Positions 18,475-36,609 of a DNA stretch of 53,577 nucleotides are shown here, piece by piece. Each line of letters opens with the position of its first letter. The first letter of the stretch is position 1. The stretch is from contig NZ_JAMTDV010000134.1 of NCBI RefSeq assembly GCF_023806565.1, positions 7,074 to 60,650 of the forward strand, given 5' to 3'. Under the pieces are notes generated by a model, which did not search any database, was not told the DNA's origin, and saw nothing but the letters and a program-made list of their open reading frames with translations. A program made the position numbers and the translations under genes. The DNA is from Accumulibacter sp. Lineage in GTDB: Bacteria > Pseudomonadota > Gammaproteobacteria > Burkholderiales > Rhodocyclaceae.

Positions 18475-19548
18475 TCATTCGCTCTTGGCACGCGCGGCCG
18501 CAGTCTTGCGCGGCGCAGCGATCTTCGCGGCCGTCGGGGCGGCGGAAAGCATTTCCTTCCGGAGCGCTCGCACCTCTTTCTTGAGCTCGTGGATCACTTG
18601 ATAGGCCTCGTCCAGCTCGCTGCGAGTCGGCATGTCTAGACCGCGGAAAATGTCCTCGACAACGGCGCGCTGCGCCAGTTTGAACTGCTGTTGCGCCTTG
18701 GTGAAGGCGTTCTGCTTGTCGAGAAACTCCTGCGTGTTGAACGTCACCAGCAACGACTTGTCCGCCGTACGGAACCAGAGGCCCATCAGTTCACGAACCG
18801 CGGTGATCTTGTCGCCCTTGGCAGCGACCTTGCCGAGTTCCTCGACCGTTGCCTCGACCGCGCGGGCGAGTGCTTCGGCAAACGCGGTATGGAACGCGAG
18901 GCTGTTCTTGCGCAGATCGACCACTGCATCGACCATCCGCAACAGCTTGGCATTCTTTTCGCGCGACGCACCGAAGAGGGGGATCTGTCCCACGCCGGCC
19001 AGGGCACTCGCGTCGCTCTCCATCGAGAGCAAGCGATTCAGGCCGGCGGTACCGCCGAGCATTGCCTCGCCGACATGACCTGCCGACGCCGCCTGATACA
19101 GGAACGACAGCCAGGGACCGATGGCGTCGGGCAAATCCTTGCTCAAGGTCCCACTCAGGCTGCCGAGGTGAGACCCCAGGCCAAAACTGCGCTCGAGCAT
19201 GGCCGTCGATTCCTTTGCCCATTGTTCGGCAAAGCCCTTGAGATCTGGGCGCCAGTCCTTCTGTGCTTCAAGATTCGGCGCCACGACCTTCATCGACTTG
19301 AAGAAGAAGTCCATGACCCGGTTCATCGCGCTCTGGCTGCCGGTGATGCGATCCATCAGCATGCGCGCTGCTTCGTTCGTACCCTGGTTGGCGGCTTCGA
19401 CGCCTCGCTTCACGGCTTCGGCGGGATTTTCGCCGCCGCCCGGGAGATTCTGCAGCAGCGAGGACCAGTCGCCCCACATGCGCTTCTGCATATCAGCCCA
19501 GGCGTTGACGACACCGCCCATTTGCTCGTTCGGATTCTTGTTTTCCAC
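18475..19548 (-). CDS. phaE: Class III PHA synthase subunit PhaE (GTG start)
   Basis: PhaE is the non-catalytic partner required by class III PhaC. This 357-residue version has the family's aromatic N-terminus (NAWADMQKRMWGDWSSLLQN), a long helical middle, and the conserved C-terminal region MPTRSELDEAYQVIHELKKE followed by VRALRKEML. A short Ala/Lys-rich tail (KIAAPRKTAAARAKSE) could touch DNA or granules, by analogy with phasins; this is speculation. Translation starts at a GTG at 19548, 9 nt after GGAG. A stem-loop upstream separates it from the MaoC gene, so phaEC likely has its own promoter in 19549-19639. Confidence 0.92.
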   Translation of the reverse strand: MENKNPNEQMGGVVNAWADMQKRMWGDWSSLLQNLPGGGENPAEAVKRGVEAANQGTNEAARMLMDRITGSQSAMNRVMDFFFKSMKVVAPNLEAQKDWRPDLKGFAEQWAKESTAMLERSFGLGSHLGSLSGTLSKDLPDAIGPWLSFLYQAASAGHVGEAMLGGTAGLNRLLSMESDASALAGVGQIPLFGASREKNAKLLRMVDAVVDLRKNSLAFHTAFAEALARAVEATVEELGKVAAKGDKITAVRELMGLWFRTADKSLLVTFNTQEFLDKQNAFTKAQQQFKLAQRAVVEDIFRGLDMPTRSELDEAYQVIHELKKEVRALRKEMLSAAPTAAKIAAPRKTAAARAKSE

Positions 19549-20618: not shown

Positions 20619-21800
20619 TCAGAGAATTTCGATGGCGATCGCGGTGGCTTCCCCGCCGCCGGCACAGAGACCGGCAATGCCACGCTTGAGGCCACGCGCC
20701 TTGAGCGCGTAGAGCAGCGTCACCAGAATCCGCGAACCGGTAGCACCGATTGGATGTCCCAGCGCGCAGGCACCGCCATTGACATTGACCTTGTCGCGCG
20801 GCAGCTTGAGGTCGCGCATCGACGCCATGGTGACGGCCGCGAAGGCTTCGTTGATCTCCCAGAGATCGACGTCAGTGGTTTGCCAGCCGACCTTCTTCAG
20901 GAGCTTTTCGAAAGCGAACACTGGCGCAGTGGTAAACCACGGGGGCTCGTGGGCAAAGGTGGCATGACCGACGATGCGGGCCAGCGGCGTGATGCCCGCA
21001 GTCCTCGCATCCGATTCGCGCATCAGCACGAATGCCGCGGCGCCATCGGAAATCGACGAAGAGTTGGCCGGCGTCACCGCGCCGTCCCTCTTGAAGGCCG
21101 GCTTCAGCTTGGAGATCTTGGAAACGTCGCACTTCATCGGCGTTTCGTCGGAGTCGCACACGACGTCACCCTTGCGCGTGCTGACCGTCACCGGCGCGAT
21201 TTCGTCCCTGAACACGCCGCTGGCAACCGCGTTTTGCGCCAGCGTCACCGACTCGGTGGCAAAGGCATCCATCTCGTCACGAGTGAAACCGTACTTGTCC
21301 ACGCAGAGCTCGGCGAAAGCGCCCATCGGCTTGCCCTGCTCGTAGGCATCCTCCAGACCATCGAGGAACATGTGGTCGTGCAGCACGCCATTTCCCAGAC
21401 GGTAACCCGAACGCGCGCTGGTCAGCACGTGCGGGGCATTGGTCATCGACTCCATGCCGCCGGCGACGGCGATATTCACCGAACCGGCCAGCAACTCGTC
21501 ATGCGCGATCATGACCGTTTTCTGGGCCGAGCTGCACATCTTGGTCAAGGTGGTGCAGGGTACCGACTTCGGCAGCCCCGCGCCCAGCACCGCCTGCCGG
21601 GCCGGCGCCTGACGTACGCCCGCCATCAGACAGCAGCCCATCAGGGCCTCGTCGATATCCTCGCCCTTGACTCCCGCCTGTTCGACGGCGGCCTTGATGG
21701 CAACGCTGGCGAGCTGCGGCGCCGTCATACCCGCAAACTGGCCCTGAAAGGCACCCACCGGGGTGCGTTTGGCACCGACGATCACTACTGATTCACTCAT
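20619..21800 (-). CDS. Acetyl-CoA acetyltransferase / beta-ketothiolase
   Basis: A 393-residue thiolase. The nucleophile Cys89 lies in TKMCSSAQKTVMIAHDEL, the HisGly motif in GACALGHPIGATGSRI, the NEAF motif in WEINEAFAAVTMAS, and the second active-site Cys in GLCAGGGEA. SISDGAAAFVL and GGMESMTNAPHVL are also standard. It may condense two acetyl-CoA for PHA synthesis or cleave 3-ketoacyl-CoA; sequence alone does not decide. The usual CGSG around the nucleophile is CSSA here, common in one subgroup. The ATG has GGAGAG nearby. It follows the 3-hydroxyacyl-CoA dehydrogenase gene by 68 bp on the same strand. Confidence 0.93.
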   Translation of the reverse strand: MSESVVIVGAKRTPVGAFQGQFAGMTAPQLASVAIKAAVEQAGVKGEDIDEALMGCCLMAGVRQAPARQAVLGAGLPKSVPCTTLTKMCSSAQKTVMIAHDELLAGSVNIAVAGGMESMTNAPHVLTSARSGYRLGNGVLHDHMFLDGLEDAYEQGKPMGAFAELCVDKYGFTRDEMDAFATESVTLAQNAVASGVFRDEIAPVTVSTRKGDVVCDSDETPMKCDVSKISKLKPAFKRDGAVTPANSSSISDGAAAFVLMRESDARTAGITPLARIVGHATFAHEPPWFTTAPVFAFEKLLKKVGWQTTDVDLWEINEAFAAVTMASMRDLKLPRDKVNVNGGACALGHPIGATGSRILVTLLYALKARGLKRGIAGLCAGGGEATAIAIEIL

Positions 21801-21868: not shown

Positions 21869-22636
21869 TTACTTGGGCGCCATGCGGATCGAGCCGTCCA
21901 GACGAATCACTTCGCCATTCAGATAGCCGTTTTCGCAGATGTGTCTGACCAGGGCGGCGTATTCGGCCGGCTTGCCGAGACGCGAGGGGAACGGCACCAT
22001 CTTGCCGAGCGAGTCCTGAGCGGCCTGCGGCAGCCCCTTCAGCATCGGGGTCTCGAAGATGCCGGGAGCGATCGTGACGACGCGGATTCCATGCGCCGCC
22101 AGTTCGCGGGCCACCGGCAGCGTCAGGCCGATCACGCCGGCTTTCGACGAGGCGTAGGCGGCCTGACCGATCTGTCCGTCGTAACCCGCCACCGAAGCGG
22201 TATTGACGATCACGCCGCGCTCACCGCCCTCGTTCGGCTCGTTGCGGCTCATCGCCTCGGCCGCCAGACGAATCATGTTGAAGGTGCCGACCAGGTTGAT
22301 GTTGACCACGCGAGCAAAAGTCGCCAGGTCGTGCGGGCCGTCACGTCCCAGCACCTTCTTGGGTGGCGCGACGCCGGCGCAGTTCACCAGGCCGTGCAGC
22401 GCCCCGAATTCGCTGACCGCCAGATCGATGGCGGCACGCGCGCTCGCGTCGTCGGCCACATCGGTCTTGGCAAAGCGCGCATTGGCTCCCAGTTGCGCCG
22501 CCTGTGCTTCGCCGGCGGTCGCGTCGACATCGACGATCACCACCTTTCCACCCGCCGCGACCAGGCTGCTCGCCGTTTCCGCCCCAAGCCCGGAGCCTGC
22601 ACCCGTTACCACAAACACACTGCCATTGATTTGCAT
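21869..22636 (-). CDS. Short-chain 3-hydroxyacyl-CoA dehydrogenase (HSD17B10-like SDR)
   Basis: A 255-residue classical SDR. The NAD site is [12 protein letters not shown]; the catalytic set is Ser in [11 protein letters not shown] and Tyr-x3-Lys in [17 protein letters not shown] is also present. Overall similarity (with the [19 protein letters not shown] region and the C-terminal [16 protein letters not shown]) is to type II 3-hydroxyacyl-CoA dehydrogenases, which oxidise (S)-3-hydroxyacyl-CoA. An acetoacetyl-CoA reductase role is less likely but not excluded. The ATG at 22636 follows a GGGGG tract; the open frame continues upstream to 22960 but only through leader sequence. Two hairpins and a T7 tract sit immediately upstream. 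Confidence 0.88.
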
Positions 22637-22655
22637 ATAACCCCCAAAAAAATTC

Positions 22656-22715
22656 GCGACGTTCCACAACGTCGCTCTCCTGGGCTGCGCCAACGGCGGA
22701 AAACCGTTGCCGCAG
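22656..22715 (-). promoter_or_regulatory. Double stem-loop leader with a T7 tract (attenuator- or sRNA-terminator-like)
   Basis: On the minus strand a 12-bp stem with one mismatch and a 7-nt loop (22715-22685) is followed 9 nt later by a perfect 8-bp stem GCGACGTT-GTGG-AACGTCGC (22675-22656). Then comes GAA and seven Ts, then the GGGGG ribosome site and the ATG of the SDR gene. The second hairpin plus T-tract has the form of an intrinsic terminator only 20 nt from the start codon. No minus-strand gene lies upstream for it to terminate, so it is either a leader attenuator or the end of a small RNA. Confidence 0.55.
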
Positions 22716-23016
22716 CAAAAAGAACCATCGTCGTCCTGCCACAACCCTTCTGATGTTGCGCGCGCCGGCTGCGGCCTGGGCCGGCGTGCACCGAAAGACG
22801 GGCTCCACAAGCTCCATCGTGGCGCACTTGCTGTGGTTCCTGGCGGCGAGCAATCCTCGCATTGTCGATTGCAACCTGCCGTCGCGTCAAGCGTCAGCCA
22901 GGCGTATGGCAAGCGCCCGCAAGCAGTCCGGAAGACGACCCGGCGAGGCGAGACGCGCAAAGGGGGCCATGCCGCCTTTCCCGCCTATAATTCGCGGTTT
23001 TCTTGCGGGTACGACC
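22716..23016. other. Divergent intergenic region between the SDR gene and rdgC
   Basis: No protein gene is supported here. A TATAAT (22986-22991) in plus orientation, 25 bp before the rdgC ATG, is a good -10 box, though no matching -35 was found. On the minus strand this region must hold the promoter for the SDR/thiolase/hydratase genes or for a small RNA ending at the hairpin at 22656-22675. Confidence 0.4.
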
Positions 23017-23916
23017 ATGTGGTTCAGGAACCTTCAGCTCTACCGCCTCCCCGCGCAGTGGGCCGCCGATCCGACCCGGCTAGCGGAGCAACTCGCCAGG
23101 CTGCCCTTGCAGGGGTGCGCTGCGACCGATCCACGCAGCCTCGGCTGGGTGGCGCCACGGGACGATGATTCGCTCGTTCATTCTGTAAACCGGCAGTGGT
23201 TGCTCGCCCTCGGCGTTGAGGAAAAGCTCCTGCCTGCATCGATCGTCAAACGCTTCGCCAGTGACCGGGCCAAGGAAATCGAGGAGGCCGAAGGCCGCCG
23301 CGTCGGTCGCCGCGAGCTGCGCGAAATCCAGGAAGCGATGACACTCGAACTGCTGCCGCGCGCCTTCATCCGCCGCCGCACCAGCTTCAGCTGGATCGAC
23401 CCGGTCAACGGCTGGCTGGTCATCGACTCCGCGTCACCGGCCAAAGGCGAGGAGTTTCTCGAACACTTGCGCAAGTCGCTCGACGCGCTGCCCGCCAGGC
23501 TGCTCAAGGTGAATCGTTCGCCCGCGGCAGCGATGACCGCTTGGGTCGCGGGCGGCGAGGCACCTTCGGGCTTCACCCTCGACCAGGATCTGGAACTGCG
23601 TTCGAGCGAGAAGGCCAGTGTGCGCTACGTCAACCACTCGCTGGAAGGCGACGAGATCCGCCAGCACATCGCCGCCGGAAAGGTCGTCACCCGTCTGGCG
23701 ATGACCTGGAACGACCGCATTTCCTTTCTGCTCAACGATCAGTTGCAGATCAAGCGACTGGCTTTCCTCGACCTATTGCAGGAACAATCCGAGAACCAGA
23801 CAGAAAATGCCGACGAGCGCTTCGACATCGACTTCACGCTGATGACCGGCGAGGTGGCCCGGCTACTCGACGATCTCATTGCCGCCCTGGGCGGGGAAGC
23901 GCCGGCCACCACCTGA
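23017..23916 (+). CDS. rdgC: Recombination-associated protein RdgC
   Basis: RdgC is a ring-forming DNA-binding protein that limits RecA access to DNA. This 299-residue protein begins MWFRNLQLYRL and carries the family stretches SNRQWLLALGVEEK-like (here VNRQWLLALGVEEKLLPASI), LLPRAFIRRRTSF, and DQDLELRSSEKASVRYVNH. The ATG at 23017 is chosen because homology starts there; the frame is open far upstream. It is widespread in beta- and gammaproteobacteria. Divergent from the fatty-acid genes and convergent with the M23 peptidase gene (29 bp between stops). Confidence 0.95.
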   Translation: MWFRNLQLYRLPAQWAADPTRLAEQLARLPLQGCAATDPRSLGWVAPRDDDSLVHSVNRQWLLALGVEEKLLPASIVKRFASDRAKEIEEAEGRRVGRRELREIQEAMTLELLPRAFIRRRTSFSWIDPVNGWLVIDSASPAKGEEFLEHLRKSLDALPARLLKVNRSPAAAMTAWVAGGEAPSGFTLDQDLELRSSEKASVRYVNHSLEGDEIRQHIAAGKVVTRLAMTWNDRISFLLNDQLQIKRLAFLDLLQEQSENQTENADERFDIDFTLMTGEVARLLDDLIAALGGEAPATT

Positions 23917-25936: not shown

Positions 25937-27334
25937 TCAGTCGCCACGACCGGCGCCACCGCCCCCGAAGCGACCGCCAAGGCCGACGAGCAGGGCGAAG
26001 AATCCCCGCCGGGCAGCCCACCAGACGATCGCGGCGATCGATCCGCCACCCGCGCTTGCCTGCACGATTCGTGTGTGCAAATCCTCGCCAAGAAGCGCCT
26101 GGATCAGCAGCAGCACGGCAAACGGCAGCATCAGCAGCAGCGCGGCAGCCATGAACCACAATGACCAGTTCCTGACCGCTGCGGGTTCTCCGACGAGCCC
26201 CGACCGTCGCCGCTTTTCGAAACTGTCCAGCAGGAGGCCGATGGCGATCAGTACGGTGAACACTACAGACGCACCGACCGCAAGACGCGCCGGATCGGCG
26301 TCGATCGACGACAGGGCAGCATAGCTGAGCGCGAGCATGAATGCGAAGTGAAGCAGGCTGCGCAGCGCCAGCAGCAAGGGTCGTGTTGCCCCCGGGAAAA
26401 GAAACGCTGCCAGCCCGATGGCCAGCAACAGCGCAAACAGGGGCGCCGGCCACAGCTGTTCGACTTCAGCCGCTGCCAGGCCGATGCCTACGAAAAGTGT
26501 GAGGATGAGGAAGAAGAGGACGACCGCGCAAAGGTTGCCGACCGCCCTCGCCCAGCGCAGAACCGGTTGCGAAATGGCGATTTCGCGACCGTTGAGACGC
26601 CACAGCAAAGGCAGCGGCAGGGAAATGGCAGCGGCAAGGGCGGCGGCGATTTGCGTTCCCCACAGCGCCCAGGCGGCAGTTCCATACATCGCCGCCAGAA
26701 TCGGCGCACTGAGCAGCGCGCCCCAGGCTCCCAGGAACAGCGGGAAGATGGCCAGCGGCGAAAACACCACGAGCACGAACGGCAACTTCCACTCGGGATG
26801 CGCGTCGAGCGGATTCGTTCTCGGCTTCGTCGCCGGCGCTGGCTCGGGAAGCGTCGCTTCGATCCGCTCGAGGACCCCGCGGAGCGCTTGCGCGACGCGC
26901 CTTTCGGCGAGATCGGGAAACACTTCGTCGATCCAGCGCGCGGCAAGCGCATCCGGGATCACCCCCTCGAGCCCGTAAGCGACTTCGATGCGCAGCGCGT
27001 TCCTGGCCGGGACCACCAGAATCAGGACGCCGTCGTCACTGCCCCTGCGTCCCAGCTGCCATGCCTCGGCGACGCGCAGGGCGTACTGGGGCAGCGTCTC
27101 CTCGCCGGTGCCGGCGGCGATCAGCACGCCGACCTGAGCCTTTCCCGATGCCGCGATTGCCTGCAGCCGCGAGTCGATCTCTTCGTGTTCGTCGGTCGTC
27201 AGCAGATTCGTCTGATCGACGAGCAGGGATGTGGCGCGCGGCGGCGGAGCCGGAGTGGCCGCCAGCGCCGCCGTACAGGAAAGCAGCAGCCAGGCGAGAG
27301 AGGTGACGAGAAGAGAGCGCAGCGGACGCCTCAC
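25937..27334 (-). CDS. TPM-domain (YgcG/TPM_phosphatase-like) membrane protein
   Basis: A 465-residue protein. After a signal peptide (about residues 5-27), residues about 40-165 form a TPM domain (VDQTNLLTTDEHEEIDSRLQ; AWQLGRRGSDDGVLILVVPA; then IEVAYGLEGVIPD). The rest is a membrane region with eight or so hydrophobic spans, ending in a Gly-rich tail (GLGGRFGGGGAGRGD). TPM proteins have been linked to phosphatase activity and photosystem repair in plants; bacterial roles are unclear. The start is a GTG at 27334 after GGGAGGGG. Its GTGA overlaps the stop of the RND gene upstream, so translation is coupled to the pump. Confidence 0.78.
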   Translation of the reverse strand: MRRPLRSLLVTSLAWLLLSCTAALAATPAPPPRATSLLVDQTNLLTTDEHEEIDSRLQAIAASGKAQVGVLIAAGTGEETLPQYALRVAEAWQLGRRGSDDGVLILVVPARNALRIEVAYGLEGVIPDALAARWIDEVFPDLAERRVAQALRGVLERIEATLPEPAPATKPRTNPLDAHPEWKLPFVLVVFSPLAIFPLFLGAWGALLSAPILAAMYGTAAWALWGTQIAAALAAAISLPLPLLWRLNGREIAISQPVLRWARAVGNLCAVVLFFLILTLFVGIGLAAAEVEQLWPAPLFALLLAIGLAAFLFPGATRPLLLALRSLLHFAFMLALSYAALSSIDADPARLAVGASVVFTVLIAIGLLLDSFEKRRRSGLVGEPAAVRNWSLWFMAAALLLMLPFAVLLLIQALLGEDLHTRIVQASAGGGSIAAIVWWAARRGFFALLVGLGGRFGGGGAGRGD

Positions 27335-30300
27335 GAATCCCCTCCCGCCCGCCGGGAGCCGGAGCCGATGCGCTCGCCGAGGCGGCAGAGCAGGATGTAG
27401 AACACCGAAACGAAGGGAATCGCGAGAATGGTCGAGGCGAGCATGCCGCCGAAAACGACAGTGCCGAGCGCCTGCTGGCTCGCCGCGCCGGCGCCGCGCG
27501 CGGTGAGCAGCGGCACCACGCCAAGCAGGAAAGCGACCGAAGTCATGAGGATCGGGCGAAATCTGCGCCGCGTTGCCTCGATCGCCGCGTCGGCCGGAGT
27601 CATCCCCGCGACCGTCAGCGCGCGCGCGAACTCGACGATGAGAATGGCGTTCTTGGCGGCAAGGGCGGTCATCAGCACAAGGCCGATCTGCGTGTACATA
27701 TCGACCGGAAAGCGCCGCACGAGCAGCGCGAGGACGATTCCGACGAGTGCCATCGGCACGGTCAGGATCACCGCCGCGGGGTCGATCCAGCTTTCGTACT
27801 GCGCTGCGAGCACCAGGAAGACCAGGGTGATGGCCAGCGCGAACAGAAAGTACGACTGCCTGCCCATCAGTTGCTCCTGATAGGCGAGTCCCGTCCATTC
27901 GTAGGCCATTCCCGCCGGCAGCGCGCTCGAGGCGAAGCCGTGCATCCGCTCCAGCGCCTCGCCCGAGCTGTATCTTGGCAGCGGGATGCCGATCAGCGCC
28001 GCTGCCGGATACAGGTTGTAGCGATAGATCAGCTCGGATCCGAGCGTCGGGTGCAGATCGAGCAGCGCCCCGAGCGGTACCATCTGCCCATCGCGATTGG
28101 CCACTGCAAGACTGCGGATGTCCGACAGGCGTCGGCGATACTCCCCGTCGGCCTGCATGCGCACCTGGAAACTCTGATCGAAGCGGTTGAACTGGTTCAC
28201 GTAGGTCGAGCCGAGGTAGGTCTGCACCGTGTGGAACAGATCGTCGATGGTGACTCCGAGCGTTCTCGCCATGGTCCGGTCGACATCGAGGTAGAGTTGC
28301 GGACTGTTCGCGTCGAAGGTGGTGAAGCCGAGCCGGAGGAAACCGGGCTCTTCGCTGGCCCGTGCCAGCAGATCGTTGGTCGCCGCCTGCAACGGGCGGG
28401 CACCGAGGCCGCCGCGATCCTCGATCATCATCTGGAAGCCGAAGGCGATTCCCAGGCCCGGAATGGGCGACGGCGGCAGAACGCCGAACGTCGCCTGCGG
28501 CAGCGAGCGGAACTTCTGCTGCAGGTCGCCGATGAGCTGCAATTGCGAAAACCCGGGCGGGCGCCTGGCCCAGTCGTCGAAGACGACGAAAGTCGTGACC
28601 GCGTTGGCGAGCTTGGCCGAATCGAGCGCCGAATAGCCGCCGATGGTTACCCAGCCCTTGACTCCGGCGGCCCCCCCGAGAACGGCATCGATTCGCTCGG
28701 CAAGCTCGCGCACGCGCGGCTGCGCGGCGCCGGGAGGAAGGCGGGCGGTGACGACGCAGTAGCCCTGGTCCTCGAGCGGCATCAATGCCGTCGGATAGAC
28801 CGCGAAAACGGCAGCAGCGCTGCCGACGACGGCAACAAAGACGCAGGCCATGCGACGCGGCCGTTGCGCGATCCAGCTCACCAACGCAAGGTAACGACCT
28901 TCCAGCGCCGCGTAGGCGCGGTTGAAGCCGCGGTAGAAGCGGTTGACGCGCTGCTCCGCCGGCCGCGGCCTGAGGTACAGCGCACACTGCGCCGGCTTCA
29001 GCGTCAGCGCATTGAGCGCGCTGAGGATCGCCGTCGCGGCGATGACCAGTGCGAACTGGCGAAACATCTGGCCGGTGATTCCCGGCAGGAACGACGCCGG
29101 CAGAAACACCGCCGTCAGCACCAGCGTGACGCCGAGGATCGGCCCGCTCAGCTCGCCCATCGCCCGCACCGCCGCCTCCTTGGGCGACAGACCCTGCTCC
29201 AGGTAGCGCGAGGTGTTCTCGACGATCACGATGGCGTCGTCCACGACGATGCCGATCGACAGGATCAGCGCGAACAGCGTCATCAGGTTGACCGTGAAGC
29301 CGAGCGCCGCCATCGCCGCAAAGGCGCCGACGATGGTCACCGGTACCGTCGTCGCCGGCACCAGCATCGCACGCGCGTCCTGCAGAAACAGCAGGATCAC
29401 GATCAGTACCAGCACCCCGGCCTCGAACAGCGTCTCGTAGACGGCGCCGATCGACTGATCGATGAAAACGGTCGTGTCGTAGAGGGAATCGTGTTCGAGG
29501 CCGGGCGGAAAGAGCCTGCTCATTTCCGCCATGCGTGCGCGCACCTCGCTCGCCACCTGCAGCGCGTTGGCGCCGGGCAGCGCGAAGACCGCCACGTGCG
29601 CCGCCTTCCTGCCATTCAGCCGGGAGAAGACCGAGAACGCCTGCTGCCCCAGTTCGACGCGGGCAACGTCCTTCAGGCGCACCAGCGAAGCGCTCTGCAT
29701 CGGCTGCGCGGCGGCCGAGCCTGACGGGCTGCGATTCGACGGCGGCTCGCTCCTGAGGATGATGTCCGCGAACTGCGCGACGTCCGACAGCCGCCCGAGC
29801 GCGTTGACCGTGAACTGGAAGATCTGGTCCGCCGCCGTCGGCGCGCCGCCGATCTGCCCGGCCACCACCTGCGCGTTCTGACTTTCGATCGCTTTCTGCA
29901 CCTGCGTGGTGGTCAGTCCGAAGGCCCGCATCTTCCCCGGATCGAGCCAGACGCGCAGGCTATAGGGCGCACCACCGAAGATTTGCACCTGGCCGACGCC
30001 CGGCAGCCGGGCGAGCGGGCTGACCAGATGGATCAGCGCGTAGTTGTTCAGGAAGGTTTCGTCGAAGCGATCGTCCGCCGAGTAGAGACTTTCGATGAGC
30101 AGAATGTTGGTGCTCACCTTGCGCACGTTCACTCCCTGCGCCCGCACCGCCTGCGGCAGTTGCGGCACGGCGCTGTTTACCGCGTTCTGCACCAGCGCGA
30201 GCGAGGTGTCGAGGTCGGTGCCGATGGTGAAGGTCACGGTCAGCGTGTAGCTGCCGTCGCTGCCGCTGGTCGATTGCAGGTAGATCGAATTTTCCAGACC

Positions 30301-30510
30301 GTTGATCGCCTGCTCGAGCGGAATGCCGATCGTGCTTGCCACCGTTTCCGCATTGGCGCCGGCGTAGTTGGTTGACACCTGGATCGTCGGCGGCACGATC
30401 TGGGGATACTGGGCGACCGGCAGGCCGTACAGGCAGACCGCCCCGAGCAGCAGCGTGACGATGGCGATGACGTTGGCCAGAATGGGCCGGTCGATGAAGA
30501 ATCGGGACAT
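27331..30510 (-). CDS. RND efflux permease, HAE1 family (second permease)
   Basis: A 1059-residue inner-membrane drug/proton antiporter, like AcrB/MexB, that takes substrates from the periplasm and inner membrane. It begins MSRFFIDRPILANVIAIVTL, the HAE1 N-terminus. The proton-relay pair is in IGIVVDDAIVIVEN on TM4, and the partner lysine in LAAKNAILIVEFA on TM10. It lies 30 bp after a paralogous permease in the same operon. A 436-bp tract (28997-29432) is identical to the paralogue, while the flanks differ. The ATG at 30510 has no clear ribosome site, so coupling to the upstream gene is likely. Substrates cannot be inferred. Confidence 0.93.
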   Translation of the reverse strand: MSRFFIDRPILANVIAIVTLLLGAVCLYGLPVAQYPQIVPPTIQVSTNYAGANAETVASTIGIPLEQAINGLENSIYLQSTSGSDGSYTLTVTFTIGTDLDTSLALVQNAVNSAVPQLPQAVRAQGVNVRKVSTNILLIESLYSADDRFDETFLNNYALIHLVSPLARLPGVGQVQIFGGAPYSLRVWLDPGKMRAFGLTTTQVQKAIESQNAQVVAGQIGGAPTAADQIFQFTVNALGRLSDVAQFADIILRSEPPSNRSPSGSAAAQPMQSASLVRLKDVARVELGQQAFSVFSRLNGRKAAHVAVFALPGANALQVASEVRARMAEMSRLFPPGLEHDSLYDTTVFIDQSIGAVYETLFEAGVLVLIVILLFLQDARAMLVPATTVPVTIVGAFAAMAALGFTVNLMTLFALILSIGIVVDDAIVIVENTSRYLEQGLSPKEAAVRAMGELSGPILGVTLVLTAVFLPASFLPGITGQMFRQFALVIAATAILSALNALTLKPAQCALYLRPRPAEQRVNRFYRGFNRAYAALEGRYLALVSWIAQRPRRMACVFVAVVGSAAAVFAVYPTALMPLEDQGYCVVTARLPPGAAQPRVRELAERIDAVLGGAAGVKGWVTIGGYSALDSAKLANAVTTFVVFDDWARRPPGFSQLQLIGDLQQKFRSLPQATFGVLPPSPIPGLGIAFGFQMMIEDRGGLGARPLQAATNDLLARASEEPGFLRLGFTTFDANSPQLYLDVDRTMARTLGVTIDDLFHTVQTYLGSTYVNQFNRFDQSFQVRMQADGEYRRRLSDIRSLAVANRDGQMVPLGALLDLHPTLGSELIYRYNLYPAAALIGIPLPRYSSGEALERMHGFASSALPAGMAYEWTGLAYQEQLMGRQSYFLFALAITLVFLVLAAQYESWIDPAAVILTVPMALVGIVLALLVRRFPVDMYTQIGLVLMTALAAKNAILIVEFARALTVAGMTPADAAIEATRRRFRPILMTSVAFLLGVVPLLTARGAGAASQQALGTVVFGGMLASTILAIPFVSVFYILLCRLGERIGSGSRRAGGDS
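28997..29432. repeat. 436-bp exact direct repeat, copy in the second RND permease gene
   Basis: This segment is identical, as far as I can read base by base, to 32228-32663 (offset 3231 bp). It encodes the TM4-TM6 region, including the proton-relay Asp-Asp. It begins at TTCAGCGTCAGCGC and ends at CCTCGAACAGCG; the neighbouring bases diverge at once on both sides. Confidence 0.9.
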
Positions 30511-30540
30511 GATCGGGGAGTGCGTTCGCCGACCGCTCGC

Positions 30541-33500
30541 CTAGCCCGCGTCGGCAATCCGCGTCGGCGCGTCTTCACCCGTCGCGCCCTTGCCCGCCTT
30601 GCGGCGCTCGGCAAGAGTTTCGAGGACGACATAGAAGCCGGGAACGAAGGGAACGGCGAGCAAGGTCGAGGCGAGCATGCCGCCGAAGACGACGGTGCCG
30701 AGTGCCTGCTGGCTGGCCGCGCCGGCGCCGGTGGCGGTGAGCAGGGGCACGACACCGAGGATGAACGCCAGCGAGGTCATGACGATCGGCCGGAAACGGC
30801 GGCGTGCCGCCTCGACCGCCGCGTCCACCACCGGCATGCCTTCGGCGCGAAGCTGCTTGGCAAACTCGACGATCAGGATGGCGTTCTTCGCCGCCAGTGC
30901 GATCATCAGGACGAGACCGATCTGCGTGTAAAGATCGACCGGAAAGCCGCGCACGAGCAGGGCGACGACCACCCCCGCCAGCGCCATCGGCACGGTCAGG
31001 ATCACTGCCGCCGGATCGCTCCAGCTTTCGTATTGTCCCGCCAGCACCAGGAAGACCAGCGCCAGCGACAGCGCGAAGATCAGATACGCCTGATTGCCGA
31101 TCAGCTTCTCCTGGTAGGCCAGGCCCGTCCAGTCGTAGCCGACGCCCGGCGGCAGATGGGCGACGGCCACTCGCTGCATGGCGGCGAGCGCCTCGCCCGA
31201 GCTGAAGCCGGGTACGGCGCTGCCGACCAGCGACGCGGCGGGATAGAGGTTGTAACGGCTGATCAGCTCCGAACCGAGCATGCGACGAACCTTGACCAGC
31301 GTGCCGAGCGGCAGCATCTGTCCGCTGCGGTTGGCAACGTAGAGGCCGGCGATGTCCGACAGCCGCCGCCGCTGCTCCGCCTCGCCCTGCATGCGCACCT
31401 GGAAGCCCTGATTGAACTTGTTGAACTGGTTCACGTAGGTCGAGCCGAGATAGGTCTGCAGGGTCTGAAATACATCGTCGATCGTCACCCCCAGCGACTC
31501 GACCATGGTCCGGTCGATTTCCAGGTAGAGCTGCGGACTGTCGGCGCTGAACGTCGTCGTCACGCCGCGCAGTTCGCCCTGTGCCTGCGCCTGCACGACC
31601 ACCTGCCGCACCACCTCCTGCAGGGGTCGCAGGCCCAGGCTGGAACGATCCTCGATGACCATCTCGAAACCGCCCGCCTGCCCCAGCCCCGGGATCGGCG
31701 GCGGGATGAGGACGGCAAATTCCGCCTTGGGGATGGCGGCGAACCGTTCGCGCAGCATGGCCACCAGCTTCGCCTGCGAGAAGCCGGCGGGGCGCCTGTC
31801 CCAGTCCTCGTACATCACGTATTCGGTGACGACGTTGGCAAGCGTCGCCGAGTCGAGCGCCGAGTAGCCGCCGCTGGTCACCCAGCCCTTGACGCCCTCG
31901 GTGGTCCGCAGCACGGCGTCGATCTCCGCTGCCAGCTCGCGCACGCGCGGCTGCGCCGCTCCCGGCGGCAGGCGGGCGACGACGATGCAGTACCCCTGAT
32001 CCTCGACCGGCAGAAACGCCGTCGGCTGCCGCACGAAGCTCACTGCTGCCAGGCCGACGATCGCCAGAAAGAGCCCCAGCATGCCGCGCGGATGCGTCGT
32101 CGTCCACCGCACGGCGCCGACGTAGCGCTGCTCGATGGCGGCGTACACCCGGTTGAAACCGCGATACAGGCGGTTCGCCCGGCGCTCGCCTGCCGGTGCC
32201 CGCAAATAGAGCGCGCATTGCGCGGGGTTCAGCGTCAGCGCATTGAGCGCGCTGAGGATCGCCGTCGCGGCGATGACCAGTGCGAACTGGCGAAACATCT
32301 GGCCGGTGATTCCCGGCAGGAACGACGCCGGCAGAAACACCGCCGTCAGCACCAGCGTGACGCCGAGGATCGGCCCGCTCAGCTCGCCCATCGCCCGCAC
32401 CGCCGCCTCCTTGGGCGACAGACCCTGCTCCAGGTAGCGCGAGGTGTTCTCGACGATCACGATGGCGTCGTCCACGACGATGCCGATCGACAGGATCAGC
32501 GCGAACAGCGTCATCAGGTTGACCGTGAAGCCGAGCGCCGCCATCGCCGCAAAGGCGCCGACGATGGTCACCGGTACCGTCGTCGCCGGCACCAGCATCG
32601 CACGCGCGTCCTGCAGAAACAGCAGGATCACGATCAGTACCAGCACCCCGGCCTCGAACAGCGCCAGATAGACGCCATGGATCGAATCGCCGATGAACGC
32701 CGAGCTGTCGAGCAGCGCCGTGTATTGGAGACCCGGAGGAAATTGCTCGCGCAGTTGCGCCATCGAGCGGCGCACCTCGTCCGCCACCCTGAGAGCGTTC
32801 GCCCCGGGCAGCGTGAAGACGTTGATCTGCGCCGCTTTCCTTCCGCTCAAGCCGGAAAAGGTGGCGAAGGTCTGCTGGCTCAGTTCGACCCGCGCCACGT
32901 CCCGGAGCCGGACGATCGCCGCCGTCTCGCCGACCGGCGTCGGTGCCTTGACTTGCGCACCCTGCGTCGCTGGCGGCCTGCTCTTGACGATGATGTTCTC
33001 GAACTGGGCGACGTCGGAGAGTCGGCCGAGCGTCAGCACCGTGAACTGGAAGAGCTGATCGGACGGCACCGGCGCCGCGCCGAGTTGCCCACCGGCAACC
33101 TGGACGTTCTGGTTCTGGATCGCTTTCTGCACGTCGAGAACGGTGAGGCCGTAGGACTGGAGCCTTGCCGGATCGAGCCAGATGCGCATGCTGTACGGCC
33201 CGGCGCCGAGGATCTGCACCTGCCCGACGCCGGGCAGGCGGGCCAGCGGACTCTGCAGGTGGATGATCGCGTAATTGCTGAGGAAGGTCTCGTCGAAACG
33301 GTCGTCTTCGGAGTACAGGCTGCCGATCAGGAGAACGTTGGTGCTCACCTTCTGCACGCTCACCCCCTGCGTCTGCACCTCCTGCGGCAACTGTGAAAGC
33401 GCGCTGTTGACCGCATTCTGCACCAGCGCAACAGCCGTGTTCAGGTTGCTGCCGACGGCGAAGGTCAGGGTCAGCGTGTAATTGCCGTCGCTGCCGCTGG

Positions 33501-33741
33501 TCGATTGCATGGCGATCGAATTCTCGACGCCATTGACCGCCTGTTCGATCGGTATGCCGACGGTGCTCGCCACCACTTCGGCGCTGGCGCCGGGATAGCT
33601 GGTCGTCACCTGGATCGTTGGCGGAACGATCTGCGGATACTGCGCCACCGGCAGGGTGAACAGGCAGACCAGCCCGAGTACGGTAGTGACGATCGCGATG
33701 ACGTTGGCGAGAATCGGCCGTTCGACGAAGAAGCGGGACAT
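30541..33741 (-). CDS. RND efflux permease, HAE1 family (first permease)
   Basis: A 1066-residue paralogue of the next gene with the same architecture: MSRFFVERPILANVIAIVTT at the N-terminus, IGIVVDDAIVIVEN in TM4 and LAAKNAILIVEFA in TM10. Two permeases beside one fusion protein and one outer-membrane factor recall MdtABC, in which MdtB and MdtC form a mixed trimer; whether these two mix is not known. It ends 30 bp before the second permease and starts 17 bp after the fusion-protein stop, with GAGG as ribosome site. The antisense strand is open for more than 900 codons, a GC-rich shadow. Confidence 0.93.
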   Translation of the reverse strand: MSRFFVERPILANVIAIVTTVLGLVCLFTLPVAQYPQIVPPTIQVTTSYPGASAEVVASTVGIPIEQAVNGVENSIAMQSTSGSDGNYTLTLTFAVGSNLNTAVALVQNAVNSALSQLPQEVQTQGVSVQKVSTNVLLIGSLYSEDDRFDETFLSNYAIIHLQSPLARLPGVGQVQILGAGPYSMRIWLDPARLQSYGLTVLDVQKAIQNQNVQVAGGQLGAAPVPSDQLFQFTVLTLGRLSDVAQFENIIVKSRPPATQGAQVKAPTPVGETAAIVRLRDVARVELSQQTFATFSGLSGRKAAQINVFTLPGANALRVADEVRRSMAQLREQFPPGLQYTALLDSSAFIGDSIHGVYLALFEAGVLVLIVILLFLQDARAMLVPATTVPVTIVGAFAAMAALGFTVNLMTLFALILSIGIVVDDAIVIVENTSRYLEQGLSPKEAAVRAMGELSGPILGVTLVLTAVFLPASFLPGITGQMFRQFALVIAATAILSALNALTLNPAQCALYLRAPAGERRANRLYRGFNRVYAAIEQRYVGAVRWTTTHPRGMLGLFLAIVGLAAVSFVRQPTAFLPVEDQGYCIVVARLPPGAAQPRVRELAAEIDAVLRTTEGVKGWVTSGGYSALDSATLANVVTEYVMYEDWDRRPAGFSQAKLVAMLRERFAAIPKAEFAVLIPPPIPGLGQAGGFEMVIEDRSSLGLRPLQEVVRQVVVQAQAQGELRGVTTTFSADSPQLYLEIDRTMVESLGVTIDDVFQTLQTYLGSTYVNQFNKFNQGFQVRMQGEAEQRRRLSDIAGLYVANRSGQMLPLGTLVKVRRMLGSELISRYNLYPAASLVGSAVPGFSSGEALAAMQRVAVAHLPPGVGYDWTGLAYQEKLIGNQAYLIFALSLALVFLVLAGQYESWSDPAAVILTVPMALAGVVVALLVRGFPVDLYTQIGLVLMIALAAKNAILIVEFAKQLRAEGMPVVDAAVEAARRRFRPIVMTSLAFILGVVPLLTATGAGAASQQALGTVVFGGMLASTLLAVPFVPGFYVVLETLAERRKAGKGATGEDAPTRIADAG
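32228..32663. repeat. 436-bp exact direct repeat, copy in the first RND permease gene
   Basis: Partner of 28997-29432. The encoded residues are identical across the tract (from LVLIVILLFLQDARAML to ATAILSALNALTL). Immediately outside, the paralogues differ (KPAQ versus NPAQ at one edge; FEAG followed by different upstream residues at the other). The direct orientation would also allow deletion by homologous recombination, which would fuse the two permeases in frame. Confidence 0.9.
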
Positions 33742-33758: not shown

Positions 33759-34943
33759 TCAGCTGCCGGCTTTGTCCGGCGCCGCGGGCGCAACGCCCGC
33801 GACCGGCTGCGGATTCACTTCCCGCCCGGGAACGGCCTGCAGGAGACCTTCGACGATCACCGCATCGTCGGCCTGCAGGCCCTCGCTGATCACCAGGCGG
33901 TCGCCGACCTGCAGGCCGGTCTTCACGCCACGGCGCTCGACGATGTTCTTCGCGTTGACCACCAGCACGTACTCGCCCTGCTGGTCGAAGCGTACAGCGT
34001 CGCCCGGGACCAGCAGCGCATCGGTCCTGGCGAGCGCGGAAATCCGCACGCGCGCGAAAAGGCCGGGGAGCACTGCCGCGTCGCGGTTCGGAAAGATGGC
34101 GCGCACCTGCAGGGTGCCGGTAGTCGGGGTGATGCCGATCGAAGCGAAGTCGAGATGGCCCTGGTGCGGATAGCCGTCTTCGCTGAGCATGCCGAAAGTC
34201 GCCGGCACGCCGCCGCCGGTGATCGTGCCCCGGGGCAGCGCCTTGTGCCGCTCGAGCAGACGCAGCAGCTCGCGCTGGTCGATCGTGAAATAGACGTAGA
34301 TCGGGTCGATCTGGTTGATTTCGGCGAGAGCCGATGGCTGCCCGATACCGCCGACGAGATTGCCCGGATCGATCAGGTGGCGGCCGATGCGTCCGCTGAT
34401 CGGGGCCCGGACCAGCGTGTAGCCCAGATTGAGTTGCGCCAGCTCGACCTGTGCCTGCGCCGCGATCAGCCGGGCCGCGGCCTGTTCCTTCTCGGTCCGC
34501 CAGTGATCGACCTGTGTCTCGGTCGCTGCGTCTTCCTTGACCAGTCCCGCATACCGCCGCAGTTCGGTGCTCGCGTGCCAGAGCGCGGCTTTCTGCACCG
34601 CCACCTGCGCCTGCGCCTGCCGGAGCTGCGCCTGGTACTGAGCCTGCTGGATGGTAAACAGCAGATCACCCTTCCTGACCTGCTGACCATCGGTGAAGTG
34701 AACCTTTTCGAGATAGCCCTCGACGCGCGCCACCACCGAAACCGTCTGGGTGGCTGCCGTGTTGCCGGTGAAGTCGAGGTAGTTGGCAACGCTCTCGGCA
34801 AGCGGCCTTGTGACGGTGACCACCGGCGGCGGCGCTACGGCCGCCTCCTTCGCCTGTCTGCAGCCAGGAAACGCCAGGGTCGCCATCACCGCGACAAGCG
34901 CAGCGAACAGCGTACTGCCGCGACACGAAGTCGATCGCTTCAT
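33759..34943 (-). CDS. RND efflux periplasmic adaptor (membrane-fusion protein)
   Basis: A 394-residue adaptor that links the RND permeases to the outer-membrane channel. A signal/lipobox-like region ends in LAFPGC, so it may be lipid-anchored, though the -3 residue is not the usual Leu. Then come the lipoyl half-motifs (VSVVARVEGYLEKVHFTDGQ; LGYTLVRAPISGRIG), a coiled-coil hairpin at about 95-170, and beta-barrel/MP domains. I prefer the ATG at 34943, preceded by GAGAAGGGGGAA, over the one at 34967. It starts 37 bp after the outer-membrane factor stop and ends 17 bp before the first permease. Confidence 0.92.
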   Translation of the reverse strand: MKRSTSCRGSTLFAALVAVMATLAFPGCRQAKEAAVAPPPVVTVTRPLAESVANYLDFTGNTAATQTVSVVARVEGYLEKVHFTDGQQVRKGDLLFTIQQAQYQAQLRQAQAQVAVQKAALWHASTELRRYAGLVKEDAATETQVDHWRTEKEQAAARLIAAQAQVELAQLNLGYTLVRAPISGRIGRHLIDPGNLVGGIGQPSALAEINQIDPIYVYFTIDQRELLRLLERHKALPRGTITGGGVPATFGMLSEDGYPHQGHLDFASIGITPTTGTLQVRAIFPNRDAAVLPGLFARVRISALARTDALLVPGDAVRFDQQGEYVLVVNAKNIVERRGVKTGLQVGDRLVISEGLQADDAVIVEGLLQAVPGREVNPQPVAGVAPAAPDKAGS

Positions 34944-34980
34944 TTCCCCCTTCTCCCTGCGCTTCATCGAGCGTACCCGC

Positions 34981-36609
34981 TCACCACTCGGGTGACCGGA
35001 GCAGCGGCCGCACGTCGTCCGGCGCTGGCAGATCGGCCGGTTGCGACACCGCATCGGGCGCCAGCAGCGTGCCCCAGTCGGTCCGCTTCGCCATTTCCGC
35101 GCGTGTCGCCGCCGGCACCAGATCCCGGCCGCGCCGCACTTCCCAGCCGCCCCCCAGCGCCCGATATGCCTTGATCAGGCCGAGCGGAATGTTGCCCTGC
35201 GCGATCGCCAGACTGTTCTGCGCCTTGTAGAGGTTCTCCTCGGCATTCAGCACGGTGGTGAAGTCCGCCGTGCCCTCCTTGTACTGCAGCAGGGCGATAT
35301 CGAGCGCACCGATTGCCGCCCGGACGCTTCTCTGCAAAAAGACCGCCTCGTCGCGCGACTGACCGAATTCGCTGATTCCGTTCTCGACTTCCTGTTGCGC
35401 CTTCAACACCGTGTTCTGGTAGTCGACCAGCGACGCCTGGAAGCGCGCGTCCTGCGCCCGCACATTGTTGGTGATCTGACCGTAGTTGAGGACGTTCCAC
35501 TGCACTGCAGGGCCGGCCGCGATCGTCAGGCTGCCGGCGCCCAGGCTGTGCTGGCCGATGCTGGAACTCACCGTGCCGATCGTGCCGAGCAGCGAGAAAG
35601 CGGGAAAGAGATCCCCCTTGGCCAGCCCGATCTGCGCCGACTGCGCTGCCGCCCGGAGTTCCGCCTTGCGCACGTCGGGGCGACGGCGCAAGAGATCGGC
35701 GGGAATGCCCACGGCCAGCGTTTCGGGAGCCACGGGAATGCCCGATGCGCCGGCGAGCAGACGGTCGAGCGGCGCAGGCGGCATGCCGAGCAGCACGCAA
35801 AGCGCGTCGGTCGCGCGCCGGCGTTCGATGTTGAGCTGCGGAATTGCCGCTTCGGTCGCACCGAGCACGTTCTCCGCCTGATACACGTCACGCTTGCTGA
35901 CCACCCCTCCGCGGAAGCGCGCGCTGGCAATCGCCAGGGCCTGCCGCTGGCGGACGACGTTCTCGCGCGCAATTGCGAGTTGCTGGTCGAGGGTGCGGAT
36001 CCTGACGTAGGTACTCGCCACGTCGCCGGTCAGCGTGACCAGTACGTCGTCATAGGCCGCGACCGACGCCAGGAAGGCGCTGCCCGCCGACTCGATCCCG
36101 CGCCGGATTTTTCCCCATAGGTCGAGTTCCCATCCCACCTGCGCGCCGAAGGCCGCCTGCCAGAACGTGTTGTCGACGACCGCGTAGGGCAGCGAGGTCG
36201 GTAGCCGGTTGTAGCTCGCCGACGCGTTCAGTTGCTGCTGCTGCGGATAGAACTCACCGATGGCGACGCCCAGTTGCGCGCGCGCCTCGAGCACGCGGAT
36301 GCCGGCTGCCAGCAGCGAGAGGTTCTGCTCGTAGGCGAGTTCGATCAGCCGCGAGAGGACCGGATCGTTGAGCGCCGACCACCATTCGCGATCGGGCTCG
36401 CGGCCCGAATCGACCTTCGCCGTGCCGTCCTCGATCCAGCTTTCGGCGAGCTGCACTGGCGGACGCTGGTAATCCGGACCGAGCATGCAGCCGGATGCCA
36501 GCAGCGTCGAGACACAGGCCAACCAAACCCGATCCCGCAGGCGAGCGGCACTCGCGCCACGCCGCGGAGCATCGCCTGCGGATTGCGCTGCGCTTCGACC
36601 GATCGCCAT
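34981..36609 (-). CDS. Outer-membrane efflux lipoprotein (OprM/NodT family)
   Basis: A 542-residue TolC-like channel protein. A signal peptide with lipobox LLASGC puts the lipidated Cys at residue 41, followed by MLGPDYQRPPV, the usual NodT start. Two OEP repeats are seen, with the family stretches WQAAFGAQVGWELDLWGKIR, IPADLLRRRPDVRKAE, and FPAFSLLGTIG. It supplies the outer-membrane exit for the adaptor and permeases encoded downstream. The operon places it first among the pump genes, right after an unknown periplasmic protein (16-bp gap). Confidence 0.93.
   Translation of the reverse strand: MAIGRSAAQSAGDAPRRGASAARLRDRVWLACVSTLLASGCMLGPDYQRPPVQLAESWIEDGTAKVDSGREPDREWWSALNDPVLSRLIELAYEQNLSLLAAGIRVLEARAQLGVAIGEFYPQQQQLNASASYNRLPTSLPYAVVDNTFWQAAFGAQVGWELDLWGKIRRGIESAGSAFLASVAAYDDVLVTLTGDVASTYVRIRTLDQQLAIARENVVRQRQALAIASARFRGGVVSKRDVYQAENVLGATEAAIPQLNIERRRATDALCVLLGMPPAPLDRLLAGASGIPVAPETLAVGIPADLLRRRPDVRKAELRAAAQSAQIGLAKGDLFPAFSLLGTIGTVSSSIGQHSLGAGSLTIAAGPAVQWNVLNYGQITNNVRAQDARFQASLVDYQNTVLKAQQEVENGISEFGQSRDEAVFLQRSVRAAIGALDIALLQYKEGTADFTTVLNAEENLYKAQNSLAIAQGNIPLGLIKAYRALGGGWEVRRGRDLVPAATRAEMAKRTDWGTLLAPDAVSQPADLPAPDDVRPLLRSPEW

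Follow-up and report, generated by a model that had tools for sequence, protein, structure and literature searches.

How can two neighbouring paralogs diverge along most of their length and still share a long segment without a single base difference? The question is raised by two tandem RND permease genes in a 53,577-nucleotide stretch of DNA (the window) from Candidatus Accumulibacter, a wastewater bacterium. The upstream gene (B) and the downstream gene (A) are 72% identical in DNA and 66% identical in protein outside one tract of 436 bp. Within it, as the first-pass annotation had noticed, positions 28997-29432 and 32228-32663 match base for base, and the match cannot be extended by one base at either end. 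The copies lie in register, each beginning at the second base of codon 360 and ending at the second base of codon 505, and their edges are sharp, with nucleotide identities of 64% and 67% in the flanking 100 codons on each side. Synonymous identity is 1.00 inside (all 139 comparable codons) and 0.62 outside (62% of 582 codons). When aligned codons were permuted (300 trials), the longest identical run was at most 55 bp. One other exact direct repeat of at least 30 bp occurs in the window (30 bp, again between A and B), and exact inverted repeats of that length are absent from it.

Table 1. Features of the permease locus, in positions of the window
Feature	Positions	Strand	Basis
RND permease A, HAE-1 type, 1059 aa	27331..30510	-	ORF; TIGR00915 1050 bits, cut-off 940
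RND permease B, HAE-1 type, 1066 aa	30541..33741	-	ORF; TIGR00915 1074 bits, cut-off 940
Periplasmic adaptor (membrane fusion protein, MFP), same operon as A/B	33759..35054	-	TIGR01730 264 bits, cut-off 94.9
Outer-membrane factor (OMF, NodT type), same operon as A/B	34981..36609	-	TIGR01845 309 bits, cut-off 210
Converted tract, copy in A, codons 360-505 (end codons partial), AcrB 344-489, TM2-TM6	28997..29432	-	Exact identity with 32228-32663; AcrB mapping
Converted tract, copy in B	32228..32663	-	Exact identity with 28997-29432
Relay aspartate codons of A (AcrB D407/D408; codons 424-425)	29236..29241	-	AcrB alignment; bases checked; within tract
Relay aspartate codons of B	32467..32472	-	Same register as A; bases checked; within tract

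Both permeases exceed the curated cut-off of the HAE-1 RND permease model TIGR00915 and fall just under that of the narrower model NF000282 (1188 bits for A and 1200 for B; cut-off 1250). Each retains all five relay residues checked (D407, D408, K940, R971 and T978 in AcrB numbering), with the D407/D408 pair within the tract and K940, R971 and T978 beyond it. The earlier description of the tract as including the relay aspartates stands, whereas its assignment to TM4-TM6 was too narrow: by the helix limits of AcrB, the tract spans most of TM2 plus TM3-TM6. The gene order OMF-MFP-B-A recurs at loci of 10 relatives. Tandem A/B pairs occur in other Accumulibacter and other Burkholderiales MAGs, in a Methylococcaceae MAG and in the order of a Binataceae MAG (Binatota); the named records that bear the pair are MAGs. 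With two candidates scored per genome, so that misses are possible, no further pairs were found among 399 genomes of the host's order, 43 of 301 genomes in the order of G446 had a match (one listed for each), and 18 of 297 in the phylum of G437 did, with an adjacent pair in G437 only. The family of G442 gave matches in 3 of 74 genomes, and all 1485 matches in plasmid records are below 60% identity.

The tract and the rest of the gene support conflicting trees. Likelihood tests used 12 pairs, namely nine pairs that also served for quartets (host, G015, G442, G437, G438, G439, G441, G452 and G455) plus G025, G003 and G013; IQ-TREE supports were taken from unrooted trees. Outside the tract, a split supported at 100/100 sets all A sequences apart, which gives two clades, A and B. 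This split is absent from the nucleotide tree of the tract, in which A and B group together in G442, G441, G455, G439+G441 and the host (SH-aLRT 92.5-100, bootstrap 92-100); the amino-acid tract tree does not recover the Accumulibacter clade or the G441 pair. AU tests reject the A-versus-B split for the tract (lnL difference 270.6, p 6e-7) and genome-wise grouping for the rest of the gene (lnL difference 1098, p 4e-19). Among 14 windows along the gene, lineage-wise grouping is favoured only at codons 361-505 and 433-577, the sign being opposite to that of the tract in the other 12. The grouping persists without the host and G440 (lnL difference 159), on amino acids (82.9, p 0.002) and on codon positions 1+2 (110.2). 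Amino-acid quartets group A and B by lineage in 33 of 36 cases at codons 361-505 (AcrB 344-489) and in 0-11 of 36 in windows sharing at most one codon with that segment (none for windows 1-145 and 37-181; 10 for 901-1045), where the 36 quartets reuse nine genomes and are non-independent. Eight of them include the host, and without these the segment count is 25 of 28. Excluded from the quartets were G440, whose A and B are each other's closest relatives in the rest of the gene as well, G446, G448 and G435, which have a partial gene, and G025, G003 and G013, which G015 represents. Gene conversion is recognized by an identical, sharp-edged segment, synonymous sites included, in diverged paralogs and by a topology conflict between tract and rest of gene; the locus has both.

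It is scarcely credible that no conversion took place and that the segment is merely the most constrained part of the gene, or that codon usage common within a genome produces the similarity. The segment is intrinsically conserved, with a mean amino-acid identity of 0.85-0.89 between pairs of different genomes compared to 0.60-0.70 in the rest, and third codon positions group by genome across many windows of the gene; in view of codon usage, topology was not judged from them. However, constraint cannot bring same-genome copies closer together than orthologs, and the persistence of lineage grouping in amino acids and at codon positions 1+2 rules out strong constraint alone, provided that the alignment is correct. 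Constraint on the protein combined with saturated synonymous sites, raised in the first-pass annotation as a counter-explanation, agrees with the conservation but leaves the host's synonymous identity and the topology switch unexplained.

Tracts in individual relatives extend the pattern. Of 16 pairs, seven carry a synonymous tract at the floor of the permutation test (p 0.0005), and each of these tracts overlaps codons 361-505. The other nine lie above it: G438 (p 0.011, in the segment), G003 (0.014, elsewhere, at codons 128-165), G013 (0.061), G435 (0.074), and G025, G015, G452, G442 and G437 (at least 0.15). Partly diverged tracts in G439, G441 and G455 have nucleotide identities of 0.91-0.94 and synonymous identities of 0.80-0.82 versus 0.57-0.61 outside. 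Across pairs, A and B proteins are 56-74% identical outside the homogenised ~145 of 1060 codons. The topology switch, together with synonymous tracts in other pairs, indicates concerted evolution that recurs and is confined to this segment, driven by gene conversion, as judged from sequence comparison. The recent conversion proposed at first is strongly supported, and the pattern recurs in the same segment of other lineages.

Draft assemblies call for a further consideration, namely that one copy was collapsed or gap-filled from the other and that the host's exact tract is unreal. The host assembly is a draft of 139 contigs, the single-contig relative G015 lacks a long exact tract, and the contigs of G024, G446 and G448 stop within the TM2-TM6 segment. 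Such an artefact is nevertheless very unlikely: collapse presupposes near-identity, and without conversion two genes with 72% DNA identity outside the tract would fall short of that; collapse also explains neither the partly diverged tracts in G439, G441 and G455 nor the topology switch without the host and G440. Exactness of the longest tracts could have been sharpened by assemblers because the named records are MAGs. The contig ends of G446 were considered as a sign of a long repeat and set aside, since the shared end is just 54 nt. Deletion or fusion of pump genes through the repeat, another early suggestion, was not seen; the sole rearranged locus found (G023) fuses the N-terminal part of the adaptor with the C-terminal half of A at a point beyond the tract.

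We consider it likely that A and B derive from an old tandem duplication and that TM2-TM6 has been overwritten repeatedly by homology-targeted ectopic gene conversion. Intragenomic copying would have spared this segment the divergence of the rest, and a recent event in the host would account for 436 exactly identical bp. TM2-TM6 would act as an island of high DNA homology, due to conserved membrane helices, amid strongly diverged stretches. RecA-type strand exchange may start in this island and halt at its heterologous edges, and each conversion would renew the homology needed for the next one. Conversions into the porter or docking domains presumably either cannot form or are purged by selection because the pumps differ functionally there. 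Homology targeting would be the simplest cause of the conversion site because, when A of one lineage is compared with B of another, TM2-TM6 is the block of highest homology: over 72 comparisons, nucleotide identity is 0.81 at codons 361-420 and 0.80 at 421-480, compared to 0.63 at 301-360 and 0.64 at 541-600. Homology alone may not suffice, since codons 61-120 (identity 0.766; mean longest exact run 19.4 nt versus 18.2 at 361-420) and 901-960 (0.772) are nearly as homologous, yet genome-wise quartets there number 0 and 10 of 36, respectively. In a conversion the donor copy would keep its type while the recipient changes; here, diagnostic sites are 14 A-like, 4 B-like and 3 other in the host's A, and 13, 5 and 3, respectively, in its B. 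The host tract groups with relatives' A with supports of 56.8/63 in nucleotides and 87.6/91 in amino acids, and AU p values for host+A, host+B and A+B of relatives are 0.67, 0.15 and 0.48.

Selection might also have a part. A and B could assemble into a mixed trimer, or vie for a single adaptor and channel, and cells whose N-terminal membrane half with the relay aspartates is the same in both subunits would be favoured; conversion there would then be positively selected. We regard this as doubtful. The segment bears D407/D408 and the five relay residues are kept in both proteins, lineage grouping is limited to the segment though other blocks come near its homology, and single adaptor and channel genes lie beside both permeases. 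On the other hand, three relay residues fall outside the tract, homology targeting already predicts its location, and MdtBC-type pairs lack such grouping (0 of 45 quartets), even though E. coli MdtBC is reported to be a B2C heterotrimer (PMC7015380, PMC4462101). That control covered 13 adjacent pairs from a larger set of matches, in which some of the others are adjacent pairs with a partial gene, plus E. coli. It lends no support to the initial idea that conversion keeps mixed-trimer pumps matched, nor does it refute a mixed trimer, because both MdtBC subunits are more diverged. There is a small chance that selection keeps TM2-TM6, including its aspartate pair, matched as an energy-coupling module between the subunits of a putative mixed A/B trimer while the porter domains specialize; if so, concerted evolution would act on one functional module of a transporter and be maintained across distant bacterial lineages.

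Comparison with known systems helps to place the pair. Like MdtABC/MuxABC, it has two adjacent permease genes with one adaptor gene, and both permeases carry relay residues. Unlike them, its operon adds an outer-membrane factor gene, its proteins belong by score to a different subfamily (MdtB/MdtC equivalog models give 407/409 bits for A and 434/449 for B, against cut-offs of 1584/1774), and MdtB and MdtC lack lineage grouping in the segment. On the same branch, HAE-1 operons with a single permease (L043, L046 and L049) share the OMF-MFP-permease order and 67.5-70% identity to A but lack an adjoining second permease and, hence, a neighbouring conversion partner. In Helicobacter pylori, intragenomic recombination keeps the outer-membrane paralogs babA and babB alike in part and divergent elsewhere, and in outline this is likewise segmental gene conversion between paralogous membrane-protein genes; those are adhesins subject to antigenic variation, whereas A and B are proton-coupled transporters that share part of the membrane core in distant lineages. 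Ectopic gene conversion in bacterial rRNA operons and Mycobacterium tuberculosis repeats is also homology-driven copying between repeats, but those repeats are generally near-identical over their full length, while A and B are homogenised over a limited segment. In a search of open-licence papers, none of the matches listed reported gene conversion for RND pumps in its title or the beginning of its abstract. The term gene conversion occurs only in the reference list of PMC12766714, on Accumulibacter, only for insertion elements in PMC517821, and nowhere in PMC7015380.

Paralogs usually diverge or stay alike; A and B do both simultaneously, with a sharp border between the two. The same module is affected in Accumulibacter (Pseudomonadota) and in the order of the Binataceae MAG (Binatota). 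A and B can be mistaken for each other in trees and gene annotation that rely on the conserved RND core, and assemblies may break at the TM2-TM6 segment. The A/B pair is a natural system for asking whether homology, selection or both sustain recombination at one site.

Permeases A and B are of the HAE-1 RND type, both exceeding the TIGR00915 cut-off, and are preceded by adaptor and NodT-type outer-membrane factor genes. They share a tract that is identical over exactly 436 bp; its sharp ends were confirmed, with a mismatch at the very next base in either direction. When aligned A/B codons were shuffled, the longest identical run was at most 55 bp in 300 trials. Within the tract every one of the 139 comparable codons matches, compared to 62% of the 582 shared residues outside it, where protein identity is 66%. 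The tract aligns with E. coli AcrB residues 344–489, covering most of TM2 plus TM3–TM6. It is wider than the TM4–TM6 span named in the first-pass annotation, although the D407/D408 pair (AcrB numbering) does lie within it. The other relay residues, K940, R971 and T978, fall outside the tract; both proteins retain the full set of five.

Coordinates of features in the window and of synonymous segments at the permutation floor
Feature	Position	Strand	Detail
Permease A	27331–30510	-	1059 aa
Permease B	30541–33741	-	1066 aa
Tract copy in A	28997–29432	-	in register, codons 360–505 (end codons in part)
Tract copy in B	32228–32663	-	in register, codons 360–505 (end codons in part)
PHA synthase subunit E (PF09712)	18475–19548	-	
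Thiolase	20619–21800	-	
Short-chain dehydrogenase	21869–22960	-	
RdgC, recombination-associated protein (PF04381)	22753–23916	+	~3.4 kb past pump operon 3' end
Floor segment, source genome	codons 361–504		p 0.0005
Floor segment, G440	codons 350–565		p 0.0005; 627 bp exact
Floor segment, G446	codons 395–522		p 0.0005
Floor segment, G455	codons 377–453		p 0.0005
Floor segment, G439	codons 418–475		p 0.0005
Floor segment, G441	codons 371–409		p 0.0005
Floor segment, G448	codons 461–497		p 0.0005

Phylogenies of the tract and of the remaining gene disagree. Outside the tract, A and B of all pairs separate across lineages (genome G440 excepted), while tract copies mostly cluster by genome or lineage. 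With 12 pairs, the split by paralog has 100/100 support outside the tract and is missing inside. In the tract this split is rejected (log-likelihood difference 270.6, p 6e-7); in the rest of the gene it is genome-wise grouping that is rejected (difference 1098, p 4e-19). The tract difference is still 159 without the source genome and G440, and 82.9 (p 0.002) on amino acids alone. Among 14 sliding windows of 145 codons, only two prefer lineage-wise grouping: codons 361–505 (+270.6, or +110.2 when only codon positions 1 and 2 are used) and 433–577 (+74.8, or +11.4 with those positions, p 0.33). In the remaining 12 the paralog split is preferred, by 2.3 to 94.7, and in five of these (145–289, 289–433, 505–649, 865–1009, 900–1044) the lineage arrangement is unrejected at 5% on all positions. 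Amino-acid quartets, each comprising A and B from two genomes, group genome-wise for 33/36 genome pairs in the tract (25/28 without the source genome) and for 0–11/36 in windows overlapping it by at most one codon. All three exceptions (G437–G452, G438–G452, G439–G441) pair genomes of the Binataceae order, and in two cases the genomes are sisters. The proposal of recent gene conversion is strongly supported, by codon identity and by the rejected paralog split. At diagnostic sites the balance (14 to 4) would favour A as the donor, and the source tract groups with relatives' A genes (87.6/91 in the amino-acid tree, 56.8/63 in the nucleotide tree); an AU test of its three placements (p 0.67, 0.15, 0.48) separates none. 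A separate conversion in the Accumulibacter relatives after the split is thus one possibility.

The same segment is affected in genomes of other lineages. A synonymous scan of 16 A/B pairs (2000 shuffles, permutation floor p 0.0005) gave floor segments in seven, all overlapping codons 361–505, although G446 and G448 were scored on partial genes from separate contigs, which partly forces segment position. Weaker segments occur in G438 (codons 353–370, p 0.011) and, elsewhere in the gene, in G003 (128–165, p 0.014). Second segments occur in G440 (241–290, p 0.001) and, at p 0.046, in the source genome (74–97), and G013 has one at 128–179, also p 0.046. The best segment of the remaining scanned pairs was never below 0.05. 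In G440 (L126, L052), besides the 627-bp exact tract, the sister relationship of A and B extends beyond the tract, the pattern that re-duplication of the pair or wider conversion would leave. The G015 pair, from the sole single-contig assembly among five complete Accumulibacter pairs, has no long exact tract; its tract quartets are genome-wise in 8/8. Strong amino-acid constraint has been considered as a full account. Mean segment identity in cross-genome pairs is 0.85–0.89 where the rest is 0.60–0.70, and conservation accounts for some of the close match between paralogs; it leaves the topology switch and synonymous identity unexplained. The initial finding is true, and larger than first noted.

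It had also been suggested that identity may be kept for a mixed trimer. E. coli MdtBC, likewise encoded by tandem RND permease genes, is reported as a B2C heterotrimer (PMC7015380, PMC4462101). Control pairs numbered 14 (E. coli, the source genome's C65 pair and 12 chosen others), of which ten are MdtBC class by identity to E. coli. None of the 14 has a synonymous segment at p 0.01 (lowest 0.019, codons 947–962). Tract quartets are genome-wise in 20/91 across all 14 (other windows span 0–40) and in 0/45 for the MdtBC class, in contrast to 33/36 for A/B. By this comparison, an MdtBC-type mixed trimer shows no such homogenisation, and the control lends the suggestion no support. Control subunits are more diverged (segment amino-acid identity 0.53–0.68), so MdtBC-type pairs may lack the homology that homogenisation needs. 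The source genome's second tandem pair (L135, G000:C65:9100–15700) is MdtBC-like (65% identity to MdtB, 61% to MdtC) and showed no significant synonymous segment in the scan.

The A/B pair is matched in 7/28 genus genomes, source genome included (E 1e-60 or better): both genes in five, in pieces in G024 and rearranged in G023. The best 80 matches (76 loci) of a protein search of named genomes include tandem pairs in MAGs from a second Burkholderiales family (G435/L042, G442/L054), in a MAG of the Methylococcaceae (G446/L065 and L063) and in MAGs from the order of a Candidatus Binataceae MAG (G437–G441, G448); a later search of that order added G452 and G455. All named records bearing the pair are MAGs. 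Gene order at 20 loci is OMF-MFP-B-A in ten and OMF-MFP-permease with a single permease in four (L043, L046, L049, L056); five are cut off and one is rearranged (G023). The single permeases of L043, L046 and L049 (OMF-MFP-A) cluster with A genes outside the tract; a lone A-type permease may thus be able to function with one adaptor and one channel. In G023:C101 (L037:6313–8586), the adaptor N-terminal part is in-frame with the C-terminal half of A, and B is absent, as is the first half of A; this fusion, whose junction falls outside the converted segment, could reflect either a true deletion or a misassembly. In G024, another Accumulibacter assembly, the A contig (C136, L038) starts partway through the segment, at codon 458; the contig with B (C126, L039) stops at codon 77. 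The source assembly has 139 contigs (3.7 Mb). Its RdgC gene near the pump operon is probably a coincidence, and the PHA synthase, thiolase and dehydrogenase genes possibly form a polyhydroxyalkanoate group, in keeping with an Accumulibacter host.

Gene conversion is a known process; no account of its recurrence in one transporter module across distant lineages was found in the literature searched. Cross-lineage A/B nucleotide identity is highest in TM2–TM6 (0.81 at codons 361–420, 0.80 at 421–480), falls to 0.70 at codons 481–540, and the peak is flanked by troughs of 0.63 and 0.64; homology-dependent strand exchange at TM2–TM6 would fit this pattern. Codons 61–120 (0.766) and 901–960 (0.772) are close in identity, yet lineage grouping there is slight; selection may therefore also act, either against conversion elsewhere or in favour of conversion in TM2–TM6. 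These comparisons indicate recurrent gene conversion confined to a single membrane module in this tandem RND pair.
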